64,000 bases of DNA from the NCBI RefSeq assembly GCF_958304185.1, contig NZ_OY284433.1, positions 2,108,001-2,172,000 of the forward strand, written 5' to 3'. Position 1 is the first letter of the stretch; each line of letters opens with the position of its first letter. The notes beneath the pieces were generated by a model that saw only the letters and a program-made list of their open reading frames with translations, made no database searches and had not been told where the DNA came from. Source of the DNA: an uncultured Erythrobacter sp. (GTDB taxonomy: Bacteria; Pseudomonadota; Alphaproteobacteria; Sphingomonadales; Sphingomonadaceae). Positions 22,728 to 32,529 of the stretch are shown here, piece by piece. The position numbers and the translations under genes were made by a program.

Positions 22728-23256
22728 CTTGGGTCTCTCCACGGGGCGCTTCCCCGGTTTCGGTGTCGTCCTTGTCGCGCACCAACAGGCTGCGGGCAAG
22801 GATTATGACGACGCCGATGGTGATGGCGGCGTCGGCAATGTTGAAGATCAGGAACGGGCGGAACGTCCCGATGTGCAGATCGGCATAGTCGATGACATAG
22901 CCCAGTTCATAGCGATCGCGGATATTCCCCAGCGCTCCGCCAAGGATAAGCGACAGGCCGAGAATCTCGCCCAGCTTGCGCTCGCGCATCATCCACACCA
23001 GCACCACCAGCGCGATCACCCCGGTGAGCAGCACCAGCAGCCAGCGGGTTTCCATGTCATTGGCCTGGAACATCCCGAGCGAGATGCCCTTGTTCTCGGT
23101 ATAGGTGAGGTCGAAGAACGGCAGCAGATCGATATGCAGCACCTCACGCAGGCGCAGCGGGCCGATCACGTATCCCTTCACCACCTGATCGATGATGGCG
23201 ACCAGCGCCGCCAGCGCCAGGCCGATCAGCCGGTTGCGGGTGAACAACCCGCTCAT
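22720..23256 (-). CDS. lspA: Lipoprotein signal peptidase (SPase II)
   Basis: Inner-membrane aspartyl protease that removes signal peptides from prolipoproteins. The 178-residue protein has four hydrophobic segments and the family motifs DQVVKGYV, TENKGISLGMF, GGALGNIRDRYELGYVIDY and FNIADAAITIG; the catalytic aspartates lie in GNIRDR and FNIADA. Its ATG overlaps the ileS stop (ATGA at 23253-23256), the conserved ileS-lspA arrangement. The tail after residue 160 is hydrophilic and dispensable-looking. Confidence 0.96.
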   Translation of the reverse strand: MSGLFTRNRLIGLALAALVAIIDQVVKGYVIGPLRLREVLHIDLLPFFDLTYTENKGISLGMFQANDMETRWLLVLLTGVIALVVLVWMMRERKLGEILGLSLILGGALGNIRDRYELGYVIDYADLHIGTFRPFLIFNIADAAITIGVVIILARSLLVRDKDDTETGEAPRGETQDA

Positions 23257-26189
23257 GCGGCCGCGTCCATGTGGCCGACCACATCATCGCAGCGCCCGCA
23301 CAGTGCGCCGTCTTCCGCCACGTCAGGCAGAAGGCGCCAGCAGCGCGAGCATTTATGGTGGGCGGTCTTGGTGACGGTCACGGTGTCGCCCTGCCCGCGC
23401 GTCACTGTCGCGGTGATGAACAGCTCGGCGAGTTGTTCGTCCGAAACGCCTTCGGGCACCGCGCTGTCGGGGACGACCACCTCGGCTTCGAGGCTGGAAC
23501 GAATCGTCTTGTCGCGCCGCAGCGGCTCGATCGCTTCGTTGACCTGATCCCGCAGCGCGCGCAGCATTGCCCAGCGGGCATTGTCGACCACGACGCCCGG
23601 CACGGCCGGCCATTCGAGCAGGTGGACAGAACCGCGCTGGCCGTTGTCGTCAGGCTCGCCATCCTCGGGATAGCGGCTCAGCCACACTTCCTCGGCGGTG
23701 AACACCAACACCGGCGCGGCATAGCGGATCAGCGCGTGGAACAACAGGTCGAGCACGGTGCGATAGGCGTTGCGCGTGACGTTATCCGGCCCGTCGCAGT
23801 AGAGGCTGTCCTTGCGGATATCGAAGTAGAAGGCTGACAGATCCTCGTTGCAGAAATCGACCAGCAACCGCGTGTAGAGGTTGAAGTCGTAAGCTTCCGC
23901 CGCGGCCTTCAGCTTGCCGTCGAGTTCGGCCAACAGTGCGAGGACATAGACTTCCAGCTCCGGCAAGGACCCGCCGTCGCTCATGTCGCCGACAAACCCG
24001 TCGAGCGCGCCGAGCAGGTAGCGGAAGGTGTTGCGCAGCTTGCGGTACTGATCGCCGACGCCCTTGAGGATTTCATCACCGATGCGGTGATCTTCGGTGA
24101 AATCGACGCTCAGCGCCCACAGGCGGATGATGTCGGCGCCATATTCCTCCATCACCTTGATCGGGCTGATGGTGTTGCCTTCGCTCTTGGACATCTTGCG
24201 ACCCTTGGCGTCCATCGTGAAGCCGTGGGTCAGCACTTGGTCGTAAGGCGCGCGGCCGCGCGTGGCGCAGGATTGCAGCAGCGAGGACTGGAACCAGCCG
24301 CGATGCTGGTCTGAGCCTTCGAGGTAGAGGTTGGCGGGCCATTGCAGGTCCGGCCAGCGCCCGCTTTCAAGCACGAAGGCGTGGGTGCAGCCCGAATCGA
24401 ACCAGACGTCGAGAATGTCGGTGACCATCTCGTAGTCGTCAGGATTGTGCGCGGCGCCGAGATATTCCGCCTTGCGCGCTTCCTCCCACGCATCGACGCC
24501 TTCCTCGCGCACAGCGGCGACGATGCGGGCGTTGACTGCGGGGTCTTGCAGGTAGGAGCCATCGGGCCGCACGAACAACGTGATCGGCACGCCCCATGCG
24601 CGCTGGCGGGAGAGCACCCAGTCGGGCCGTCCTTCCACCATCGCGCCGATGCGATTGCGGCCCTTTTCGGGGATGAACTCGACGCGGGCGATTTCGGAGA
24701 GGGCGCGCTCGCGCAGCGTAGAGCCCCTTCCCTCAAGGGAAGGGGTTGGGGATGGGTGTTCGACGGTTGCGGAGGGCGGACCCCCCACCCCCAACCCCTC
24801 CCCCGAGGGGAGGGGAGAATCAAGCACCTTATCCATCGGCACGAACCACTGCGGGGTGCAGCGGAAGATCACCTTGGCCTTGGAGCGCCATGAGTGCGGG
24901 TAGGAGTGCTTGTAGTCAGCCGACGCCGCAAGCAGCGCGCCGGCCTCGCGCAGGTCCGAACAGATCGGGCCATCGGGCGCGTTGAACTTGGGGTTGATGA
25001 CGCTCATGCGGCGCTCGTCGTGAGCGCCCAGCCATTGCCAGTCGTCGCGATAACGCCCGTCGTCCATCACCGCGAAGACGGGGTTGATGCCGTTCGCTTT
25101 GCACAGGTCAAAGTCGTCCTCGCCGTGGTCGGGCGCCATGTGGACGAGGCCGGTGCCAGAATCGGTGGTGACGAAATCGCCGGGGAGCAGCGGGCGCGGG
25201 GTGGCGTAGAACCCGCCGAGGTGGTGCATCGGGTGGCGGGCGAGGGTGCCAGCGAGGTCTGCGCCTTTGAAAGTCCTGATTACCCCGTCACCCGGCTCAG
25301 CTTGCGTCAAAGGCGCTTGGCCGCTCGATGCCACTCTGGACCAGAAATCAAACTGTCGATCAGCCGCAATTACGATGTTCTTTTCATTGGATCGCAGCAA
25401 AACATACTCAACCTCCGGCCCATAGGCCAAAGCCTGATTGACCGGGATCGTCCACGGCGTCGTCGTCCAGATCACCGCGTGGGCGCCGACCAGTTCGGGG
25501 ATCGGCGATTCAACGATCTCGAACGCCACGTCGATCTGGGTCGAGGTGATGTCCTCGTATTCGACCTCCGCCTCGGCCAGCGCGGTCTTTTCGACCGGGG
25601 ACCACATCACCGGCTTGGCCCCGCGATAGACGTTCCCGGCCTCGGCGAACTTCATCAGCTCGGCGACGATGGTAGCTTCGGCCTGGAAATCCATGGTGAG
25701 ATAGGGATGGTCCCAATCGCCCATGATGCCGAGGCGCTTCAGCTGCTCGCGCTGCACATCGACCCATTGCTGCGCATAGGCGCGGCATTCGGCGCGGAAT
25801 TCCTTCGGGGGAACCTCGTCCTTGTTCTTCTTGGCCTTGCGGTAGGCTTCTTCGACCTTCCATTCGATCGGCAGGCCGTGGCAATCCCAGCCCGGAACAT
25901 AAGGCGCATCGCGGCCCAGCAGGTTCTGGGTGCGGCAGACCATGTCTTTGAGGATGTGGTTCAGCGCATGGCCGATATGCATGTCGCCATTTGCGTAGGG
26001 CGGGCCATCGTGGAGGATGAACTTCTCGCGGCCCCGGCGCGCATCGCGCAAGGCGTTGTAGAGCCCGATCTGCTCCCAGCGCGCGGCAATGCCCGGCTCC
26101 TTCTGGGGGAGGCCGGCCTTCATGGGGAAATCGGTCTTCGGCAGGAAGACGGTGTCCCGGTAATCGCGCTTGGTGCTTTCGTCAGACAT
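23253..26189 (-). CDS. ileS: Isoleucyl-tRNA synthetase with an in-frame REP-encoded insertion
   Basis: Class I aminoacyl-tRNA synthetase charging tRNA-Ile, 978 residues. The HIGH motif is HIGH at residues 71-74 (PYANGDMHIGHALNHILKD) and the KMSKS motif is K665-S669 (GRKMSKSEGN). The C-terminal zinc site is CSRCWRL...CGRCDDV. Between FVPMD and LRERALSEIARVEFIPEKG, where homologues have only a short loop, residues about 455-490 are rich in Pro, Gly and Ser. This segment is encoded by a palindromic repeat at 24722-24816. The frame is intact across the element, so the enzyme is presumed functional. It leads into lspA. Confidence 0.96.
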   Translation of the reverse strand: MSDESTKRDYRDTVFLPKTDFPMKAGLPQKEPGIAARWEQIGLYNALRDARRGREKFILHDGPPYANGDMHIGHALNHILKDMVCRTQNLLGRDAPYVPGWDCHGLPIEWKVEEAYRKAKKNKDEVPPKEFRAECRAYAQQWVDVQREQLKRLGIMGDWDHPYLTMDFQAEATIVAELMKFAEAGNVYRGAKPVMWSPVEKTALAEAEVEYEDITSTQIDVAFEIVESPIPELVGAHAVIWTTTPWTIPVNQALAYGPEVEYVLLRSNEKNIVIAADRQFDFWSRVASSGQAPLTQAEPGDGVIRTFKGADLAGTLARHPMHHLGGFYATPRPLLPGDFVTTDSGTGLVHMAPDHGEDDFDLCKANGINPVFAVMDDGRYRDDWQWLGAHDERRMSVINPKFNAPDGPICSDLREAGALLAASADYKHSYPHSWRSKAKVIFRCTPQWFVPMDKVLDSPLPSGEGLGVGGPPSATVEHPSPTPSLEGRGSTLRERALSEIARVEFIPEKGRNRIGAMVEGRPDWVLSRQRAWGVPITLFVRPDGSYLQDPAVNARIVAAVREEGVDAWEEARKAEYLGAAHNPDDYEMVTDILDVWFDSGCTHAFVLESGRWPDLQWPANLYLEGSDQHRGWFQSSLLQSCATRGRAPYDQVLTHGFTMDAKGRKMSKSEGNTISPIKVMEEYGADIIRLWALSVDFTEDHRIGDEILKGVGDQYRKLRNTFRYLLGALDGFVGDMSDGGSLPELEVYVLALLAELDGKLKAAAEAYDFNLYTRLLVDFCNEDLSAFYFDIRKDSLYCDGPDNVTRNAYRTVLDLLFHALIRYAAPVLVFTAEEVWLSRYPEDGEPDDNGQRGSVHLLEWPAVPGVVVDNARWAMLRALRDQVNEAIEPLRRDKTIRSSLEAEVVVPDSAVPEGVSDEQLAELFITATVTRGQGDTVTVTKTAHHKCSRCWRLLPDVAEDGALCGRCDDVVGHMDAAA
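24722..24816. repeat. REP-like palindromic element, copy A, inside ileS
   Basis: A 95-bp GC-rich element with CCCCTTCCCT/AGGGAAGGGG at one end, CTCCCC/GGGGAG at the other, and inner arms GGGGTTGGGG and CCCCAACCCC that can pair across the whole element. It is nearly identical along its length to 32435-32529 (few differences by eye, no indels in the core). It lies in frame in ileS and encodes about 32 residues on the coding strand. Repeats of this type, read as PLPSGEGLGVG, are familiar from sphingomonad genomes. Confidence 0.9.
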
Positions 26190-26254
26190 AGGCTCGCGCC
26201 GTTAGGGCAATTGCGGCTCGCGATAAAGGGTTTGCGCGCACCACGTCCCAAACT

Positions 26255-26345
26255 CGTCATGCTGAACTTGTTTCAGCATCCATTCTTCGGCTTCGAGCGG
26301 CGGTGCTTGTAGCGCAATGGATCCTGAAACAAGTTCAGGATGACG
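26255..26345. repeat. Palindromic intergenic repeat overlapping the end of ribF
   Basis: The left arm at 26255-26281 begins CGTCATGCTGAACTTGTTTC and the right arm at 26319-26345 ends AAACAAGTTCAGGATGACG. They are inverted copies about 27 bases long with a 37-bp spacer. It belongs to a REP family common in alphaproteobacteria. The right arm contains the ribF stop codon (26335-26337) and its last serine codons. Confidence 0.85.
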
Positions 26346-27270
26346 AAGAGAGAAGGCGCCGCGCCTCGGCGCAATCCTTGTCCATTTGTTCGATCAGCGC
26401 CTCGAGGCTATTAAACTTCGCCTCGCCGCGCAGGAAGTGGTGGAAGGCGACCTCGATCTCCTGCCCATAGAGGTCGCCGCTGAAGTCGAAGAAGTAGGGC
26501 TCCAGCAATTCCTTGGGCGGTTCGAACTGCGGGCGGATGCCGATATTGGCCGCGCCGTGGAGCACCTGTCCGGTGGCGAGCAAGCGGCCGGTGACGGCGT
26601 AGATGCCGTATTTGGGGCGCAGGTAGTTGTCGATTGTGACGTTGGCGGTGGGGTAGCCGATGGTGCGCCCGCGCTTGTCGCCGTGTTCGACGATGCCCCT
26701 GATCGCGAACGGCCGGGTCAGCAGGCGCGCGGCCAGCTGCGGATCGCCCTCACGCAAGGCGGTGCGGATGCGGCTGGAGGAGACGACCTCGTCGCCATCT
26801 GCCACTGGCTCTACCACCCGCGATTGCAGGCTGAGTTCGCCGCCGAGGGCGCGCAGCAGTTCGACATTGCCCTTCGCCCCCTTGCCGAAAGTGAAATCGC
26901 CGCCGGTAACCACCCCATGCGCGCCGAAACGCTCGATCAGGATGGCGCGGATGAAATCCTCCGCGCTCGTGCCCGCCAGATCGGCATCGAAGTGGAACAC
27001 CAGCATCGCGGTTGCGCCTGCCGCCAGATAAAGCTCCTGCCGTTGCTCCAAGGTCGTCAGCCGGAACGGTGGCACATCGGGCTTGAAGAAGCGCACCGGG
27101 TGCGGATCGAAGGTGGCGATGATCGAGGGGCGACCCTCGGCCTGCGCCCAGCGGATCGCCTCGCCCGCCACAGCCTGATGGCCCGAGTGGAACCCGTCAA
27201 AATTGCCGAGCGCGATGACCGCACCGCGCAGCGCCTCGGGCATGGAATCGCGGTGATCGAGCCAGCGCAT
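26335..27270 (-). CDS. ribF: Bifunctional riboflavin kinase / FAD synthetase
   Basis: Makes FMN from riboflavin and then FAD. The N-terminal nucleotidyl-transferase half has ALGNFDGFHSGHQAV and FTFGKGAKGN; the C-terminal flavokinase half has HGDKRGRTIGYPTANV and later GVHNIGIRP-like AANIGIRPQF. The ATG at 27270 overlaps the folA stop as TGATG, so it is preferred to a TTG one codon earlier. The last residues (SSSS) and the stop lie in a palindromic repeat, so the natural C-terminus has probably been altered by repeat insertion; the catalytic domains are complete. Confidence 0.95.
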   Translation of the reverse strand: MRWLDHRDSMPEALRGAVIALGNFDGFHSGHQAVAGEAIRWAQAEGRPSIIATFDPHPVRFFKPDVPPFRLTTLEQRQELYLAAGATAMLVFHFDADLAGTSAEDFIRAILIERFGAHGVVTGGDFTFGKGAKGNVELLRALGGELSLQSRVVEPVADGDEVVSSSRIRTALREGDPQLAARLLTRPFAIRGIVEHGDKRGRTIGYPTANVTIDNYLRPKYGIYAVTGRLLATGQVLHGAANIGIRPQFEPPKELLEPYFFDFSGDLYGQEIEVAFHHFLRGEAKFNSLEALIEQMDKDCAEARRLLSSSS

Positions 27271-30444: not shown

Positions 30445-30819
30445 TTTCCGCCCATGCGGGGCGGAAATGAGCCCTTGGCGTTTCGCCGGCCCATCCGGGC
30501 CGAAGTCCTCGGTGCTATTCCTCCACTTCGCCCGGATCAAGTCCGGGGTACGTTCCGGGCACCTGCGGTCGCTGCGCGACCGATTGGAAAGCAAAGTCCG
30601 TTAGCTAGGAAATGGCGTCAAAAGTTGGTGCTTGGGAAGCAATCCCATTCTGTCAATTTCCGTCATCCCAGCGAAAGCTGGGACCTCAGGCGGCAAACGC
30701 TGCTCGATCCGGCCCTAGGCCCCAGCTTTCGCTGGGGTGACGGGAGTATGGCGATTCACCCAGCAGCACGCCTCCGCAGGCACGCATTCCGGCCCTGAAA
30801 GCGGACCCGCGCCCTAAAG
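30445..30819. other. Gene-free 375-bp region made largely of hairpins and repeats
   Basis: Immediately after the tRNA CCA, TTTCCGCCC and GGGCGGAAA form a perfect 9-bp hairpin (30445-30467), probably for termination or 3' processing. GGCCC/GGGCC (30488-30500) and CCCGGA-TCAAG-TCCGGG (30531-30547) are further short hairpins, the latter resembling a common alphaproteobacterial REP arm. The paired repeat at 30659-30744 follows. No coding region is supported here. Confidence 0.6.
30659..30744. repeat. Palindromic REP-like repeat pair
   Basis: The left arm begins CGTCATCCCAGCGAAAGCTG (30661) and the right arm CCCAGCTTTCGCTGGGGTGA (30721) with flanking CCTCAGG and CCTAGGC; they are inverted copies about 30 bases long. 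Each arm also forms its own small hairpin. This is the 'CGTCATCCC' class of repeat seen in many alphaproteobacteria. It is intergenic between tRNA-Thr and the sterol-desaturase-like gene. Confidence 0.85.
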
Positions 30820-32434: not shown

Positions 32435-32529
32435 AGCCCCTTCCCTTGAGGGAAGGGGTTGGGGATGGGTGTTCGACAGTCGCGGAGGGCAGACCCCCCA
32501 CCCCCAACCCCTCCCCAAGGGGAGGGGGG
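32435..32529. repeat. REP-like palindromic element, copy B, between E1 beta and lipoyl genes
   Basis: A 95-bp element nearly identical to 24722-24816 in ileS. It starts AGCCCCTTCCCTTGAGGGAA and ends in CCCCAAGGGGAGGGGGG, with the same inner arms. It ends one base before the TAA stop codon of the E1 beta gene (32531-32533). Confidence 0.9.

Follow-up and report, generated by a model that had tools for sequence, protein, structure and literature searches.

Palindromic repeats that are translated in frame as part of a protein are already known, from the RPEs of Rickettsia and from the work of Di Nocera 2013, and ileS is among the genes that carry them. The available part of the Rickettsia study (PMC3767692) describes RPEs in many genes, in frame and at solvent-exposed places, including tRNA synthetases and DNA repair genes, and lists RPE-7 in ileS of R. 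japonica, R. conorii, R. africae, and R. felis. According to the same text, an insert is present in every Rickettsia orthologue and a single old origin is favoured, although its authors leave room for hotspots that receive inserts of different origin. The accessible sections of Di Nocera 2013 (PMC3733652) report intragenic REPs in uvrA, DNA ligase, and tRNA synthetases of X. oryzae, E. litoralis, and S. alaskensis, with the tRNA synthetases of the latter two left unspecified. There, recB of two Xanthomonas has a REP at about the same site, and other genes have theirs at different sites. The open-access literature that we searched contained no report of one enzyme loop being captured repeatedly by unrelated families.

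We analyzed a stretch of 64,000 nucleotides (the window) from an Erythrobacter-like bacterium that has Erythrobacter and Porphyrobacter as its closest named relatives, and whose family we take to be the Sphingomonadaceae of GTDB. The window contains ileS (23253..26189, minus strand), an ORF for an isoleucyl-tRNA synthetase of 978 residues, with phmmer matches to solved IleS chains (best E 6.6e-204) and a fold match to IleS structures. An alignment of relatives places a hypervariable loop at residues 454-490, between TPQWFVPMD and TLRERALSEI (24720..24830, minus strand). Most of this loop is a REP-derived insert of a family that we label A (24720..24821, minus strand; REP-A model score 66.5 bits), delimited by comparison with the empty loops of two relatives, Porphyrobacter sp. 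SLTP (L090) and Erythrobacter ramosus (L159). The 102-bp insert encodes 34 REP-derived residues (457-490, DSPLPSGEG...EGRGS), a net gain of 30 codons over both relatives. A sequence-only reading had put the addition at about 32 residues; it was right about the extra Pro/Gly/Ser-rich residues in the loop, and the size is corrected here to 34. Its claim of a 95-bp repeat with the frame open on both sides was borne out: segment 24722-24816, the first direct-repeat family of the window in a direct-repeat scan, matches a sister copy outside ileS at 32435..32529 (plus strand) in 84 of 95 bases without gaps, or at 93% identity with gaps, and by repeat and genome comparison the element has no better match elsewhere in the genome. 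Sequence reading and folding revealed two palindromic arm pairs, neither assigned to a strand, CCCCTTCCCTCAAGGGAAGGGG (24724..24745) and CCCCTCCCCCGAGGGGAGGGG (24795..24815), and the element folded better than 200 of 200 shuffled sequences (z -3.26). It has the ends TCCCC and AAGGGGCT, without a GTAG or CGTC tag. Direct-repeat families and genome searches also identified a copy of an unrelated CGTC-type family, C, at 30660..30743 (plus strand), and family C occupies the same ileS loop in other species. An inverted repeat of a further type, TCGTCATGCTGAACTTGTTTCAGCATCC..., adjoins the ileS start at 26254-26346.

Across 30 ileS genes from relatives, the stretch from FVPMD to LRE is highly variable. 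A second hypervariable segment lies at about residues 265-305 (window 25275-25400) in the alignment of relatives. Porphyrobacter sp. SLTP and E. ramosus both read KVLGEGG at the site of the insert, while the window IleS has KVL, then the 34 REP-derived residues, and then TLRERA. The three sequences form a starred set on the flank DNA trees (96 and 97, two trees); on the flank protein tree the set has no star. Given the two empty loops and the starred set, the ileS insertion is probably younger than the split from E. ramosus and SLTP. Finding GEGG in the two nearest relatives that our search recovered answers the question of whether the insertion is absent from them, and on this ground we reject an ancestral protein segment. 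The best other match of the element lies only 7.7 kb off in the same genome. Elsewhere in the SLTP genome the element gave 11 match rows, yet the ileS loop there is empty; the genomes of E. ramosus and of L139 gave no match to the element at E <= 1e-6.

The window element gave 29 match rows at E <= 0.01 in its own genome (5 contigs, 3.29 Mb), which we merged by eye to about 15 places since palindromes match on both strands. This copy number makes the element a repeat family, as proposed from the sequence. Six of the 15 places are in genes named by NCBIfam (ileS, ligA, ubiG, trmD, mutL, and a dihydrolipoyl acyltransferase gene, the last a partial match resting on 26 bp); the other nine had no NCBIfam match in the frames scanned, which were not all frames, or no long spanning frame. 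In-frame insertions are present in several unrelated genes of this genome, namely ileS, ligA, ubiG, trmD, mutL, and glyS, and its glyS beta subunit (L226, C1 around 334579) has three separate REP-derived loops from two families. Its ligA (L004) contains a second Gly/Pro-rich stretch, AAERAQSSPSGEADSDPQGRG...PPPRGGED, that is absent from L255 and may be another repeat-derived insert. Other genomes carry gene-borne REPs in glyS, valS, uvrA, mutL, ligA, ispE, and a nitrite/sulfite reductase-like gene; many of these cases came through REP queries, and the gene frequencies are a biased sample. Site 1 of GlyS is shared by the unrelated families A, B, and C and held a REP in 4 of the 15 rows giving a value (22 same-genus loci), site 2 holds families A and C, and the UvrA site has family C in L208 and family A in L301. 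Long open frames over REP-A copies (two in L005 and one each in L010, L015, L017, L029, and L028) lacked an NCBIfam match and were rejected as genes, those over REP-C copies were left uncounted for the same reason, and a Pfam scan of ten frames over REP copies gave no match. The PF01797 transposase (RAYT) had no match in this genome and was present in 9 of the 41 genomes searched. By eye, no target-site duplication was evident at the junctions, where the site has diverged.

We then extracted 290 ileS loops, all in frame and none with a frameshift or stop; dropping 27 duplicates left 263 distinct loops. These were compared (cut-off 8 bits) with family models made solely from copies outside ileS. 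The model copies came from whole-genome searches because BLAST seeds against the flanks of 80 named loci, ranked by similarity to the window protein, gave too few. Four families matched: A, the window's family (CCCCTTCCC type), in 24 loops; B (CTTCGACAAGCTCAG type) in 11; C (CGTCACCCCAGCGAAAGCTGGGG type), which has CGTC at its start and the complement of CGTC at its end, in 8; and D (CTCGACTTCGCTCG type) in 12. Within the boundaries that we drew, families A, B, and D have neither GTAG nor CGTC at their start. Altogether 55 of the 263 distinct loops matched a REP, compared with 0 of 526 control segments adjoining the loop, and the 46 of these 55 that are genus-labelled come from 24 genera. REP-matched loops folded strongly (median z -3.7 to -6.3), in contrast to the common non-REP types W (0.06) and Q (-0.21). 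Nine further loops folded strongly (z < -3.9) without a model match and were left uncounted. Types W and Q are conserved, about 26-35 residues long, and scattered over the tree in several genera (19 and 7 changes, respectively), which looks as if loops were exchanged or repeatedly lost. Occupancy by REPs varied with sampling: 7 of 30 loops in one set of 30 loci, and 38 of 150 among the matches listed for a flank-only query with matches in 290 genomes, including 15 extra loops without any REP match. This frequency and the earlier published cases lend no support to the view that such an insertion is rare. Of 20 ileS genes fetched from other families of the order, the site could be read in 14, where the link is 3 residues; in L052, which likewise belongs to another such family, the loop is 20 residues long and has no REP match. 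The genome of L160 gave no further REP-D match. Judged from these loop sequences, the ileS loop is a hot site for REPs in Sphingomonadaceae.

Placing the loop types on quick trees of the flanks required at least 48 REP-type changes on the protein tree and at least 48 on the DNA tree, where a change may be a gain, a loss, or recombination; some of the 48 may be due to recombination between loop alleles. On the DNA tree, starred branches force 16 changes for A, 10 for B, 7 for C, and 7 for D, and well-supported branches of the protein tree force 10, 7, 4, and 4. Within 96 long loci at 15 bits, the loop (7.5 kb) had 17 hits, the rest of ileS (271 kb) had 2, and the sequence outside ileS (1277 kb) had 22. 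The loop bases include the repeats themselves, which inflates the per-base contrast, and it is safer to rely on the count of 17 of 96 loci. Both ileS hits beyond the main loop, in L154 and L096, sit in the other variable loop near residue 300, near the second hypervariable segment (25275-25400).

The REP loops are biased in the frame in which they are read. Counting frames by arm pattern was uninformative, and we compared the composition of all six frames instead. The frame used is the most disorder-promoting of the six in 44 of 55 REP loops versus 70 of 140 long non-REP loops, and it has the lowest content of W, C, F, Y, and H in 41 of 55 versus 38 of 140. Low-Arg frames were preferred no more than in controls (40 of 55 versus 116 of 140), and a stop was present in 119 of 275 alternative frames of the REP loops. 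Exceptions read in another frame were one REP-C copy, in the nitrite/sulfite reductase-like gene, and two REP-A copies, in the L184 ileS and at site 1 of the window genome's own GlyS. An AlphaFold2 model of the window IleS (36 sequences, mean pLDDT 80.6), used in place of an earlier model that was set aside (mean pLDDT 51.9), matched solved IleS of Priestia megaterium (8c9e) with TM 0.75 and 0.80. Residues 461-486 had pLDDT < 50, preceded by a strand ending at 450 and followed by a helix starting at 492, so the insert loop is predicted to be flexible, and its modelled position between ordered elements fits the idea of a tolerated loop. Alignments to solved IleS (8c9e and 8c9f, among the matches listed) place 3 chain residues opposite 40 of the window IleS at this position. 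The loop presumably lies where the chain leaves the editing part of IleS.

We hypothesize that a REP-like palindromic element of this bacterium's lineage copied itself at the DNA level into ileS after the split from E. ramosus and SLTP. Its landing site would be a flexible tether that joins a strand to the helix starting LRERA, and the frame used would yield a Pro/Gly/Ser/Glu-rich linker that leaves the enzyme intact. Permissive loops in IleS, GlyS, UvrA, MutL, and LigA of Sphingomonadaceae would capture REP families repeatedly, while REP insertions elsewhere within genes would mostly be purged, so that mobile palindromes are filtered to permissive loops. We consider this account likely, and several findings argue for it: the element is multicopy, the nearest relatives are empty, 55 of 263 loops but 0 of 526 control segments match a REP, at least 48 changes are needed, the frame is biased, pLDDT is low, and GlyS and UvrA sites are shared between families. 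Movement as DNA, purging elsewhere, and the lack of harm to enzyme function are what we infer from this pattern. The density of REPs per base is higher in the loop than in the surrounding DNA and exceeds what mere tolerance would predict, unless in-frame copies are hard to lose. Several points speak against the capture reading, namely the lack of PF01797 in this genome, the exceptional frames, the low-Arg frames that are not favoured over controls, the missing element matches in the L159 and L139 genomes, the lack of further REP-D in L160, and the non-REP loop of L052.

An excess of AGA/AGG codons also counts against capture, which offers no explanation for it: the Arg codon next after the loop is AGA or AGG in 14 of the 55 REP rows (L036, L046, L048, L092, L096, L124, L139, L154, L156, L175, L180, L328, L383, and L414) but in 0 of the 208 loops without a REP match. 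Element tails are an unlikely source, as TGAG[AG] occurs in 4 of 48 REP-B and 5 of 62 REP-C tails, ileS copies included. The excess would suit a REP loop that is selected for, because its mRNA hairpin or a following slow stretch aids folding or expression where the chain returns to the catalytic core, and the high occupancy (17 of 96 loci; 38 of 150 among the matches listed) points the same way. We nevertheless regard selection as rather improbable, since 208 of 263 loops, including those of the two nearest relatives, have no REP match, the families have no sequence in common, and the common non-REP loops W and Q show no excess folding; relief of mRNA pairing by AGA/AGG was also not significant, with no clear difference in Arg codon pairing (p 0.07). 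Spread of REP-bearing ileS alleles between species by recombination, with few true insertions, is a possibility that we take more seriously, though it too seems less than likely. Five of the 8 family C rows (L046, L092, L096, L156, and L175, from two genera) carry ACG(T/C)TGAGAGAG just past the element, and the non-REP types W and Q show a scatter too. Four unrelated families nonetheless require at least 4 insertions, the closest counterpart of the window insert is a copy within the same genome, the nearest relatives lack the insert, and unrelated families also share one site in GlyS and in UvrA.

A mobiliser that targets a specific DNA site in the ileS loop would account for the repeated use of one loop and for the C that precedes 12 of 12 REP-A copies aligned from the first base, although this base may belong to the element. 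Such targeting is very improbable in light of four families with different ends, junctions that differ by several codons, and the absence of PF01797 from this genome. An origin of the insert as ancestral protein, or as an artefact of assembly, is hardly credible: most relatives do have some loop at this position, many of the conserved types W and Q, but the nearest relatives have GEGG in its place, the element occupies about 15 genomic places, and REP loops occur in many separate assemblies with 0 of 290 frameshifted.

Family C differs between genes and other places. The arm GGCATGACG is present in 9 of 13 copies within named genes versus 0 of 15 others (28 compared; Fisher p 1e-4), and the hairpin of the variant arm, ATGCCAGC...GCTGGCAT, is kept by paired changes. 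Around these 15 copies no gene was recognised: the longer frames that cross the repeat gave no NCBIfam or Pfam match, with some short frames left unscanned. The 15 are among the best-scoring other hits, which makes the arm contrast conservative. One genome (G015) has family C copies in ileS, glyS, and valS that are 95-97% identical; among the 15, the closest copy reaches 83% in G015 and 84% in any genome. The tree of family C copies has one starred branch only. A speculative and on balance doubtful reading is that Sphingomonadaceae contain lineages of palindromes adapted to coding sequence, which pass between genes, prefer loops of aminoacyl-tRNA synthetases, and are kept by a benefit to translation. 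If true, these would be mobile elements that exist as protein segments.

The ileS loop offers a natural experiment, in which repeats of at least four unrelated kinds have struck one loop of one essential enzyme many times over and empty relatives serve as controls. It shows a path from selfish DNA to protein sequence and supplies genes and sites for asking whether such loops are neutral. The window element resembles MITEs, as far as the consulted descriptions go, in being short palindromic DNA, which in MITEs is non-autonomous, and differs in having no target-site duplication evident by eye and no parent transposase found here. Like the GTAG/CGTC REPs in the accessible sections of PMC3733652, the elements are short multicopy palindromes, and family C has CGTC with its complement at the end; unlike them, families A, B, and D do not start with GTAG or CGTC. 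The likeness to the RPEs of Rickettsia, as described in the available part of PMC3767692, is that the element is multicopy, palindromic, and in frame within several genes, ileS among them. The difference is that the nearest relatives here are empty and that four unrelated families occupy the ileS loop. Our results thus bear on the question raised for Rickettsia in the available part of PMC3767692, whether hotspots or one diverged old insert explain the pattern, and in Sphingomonadaceae they favour hotspots.
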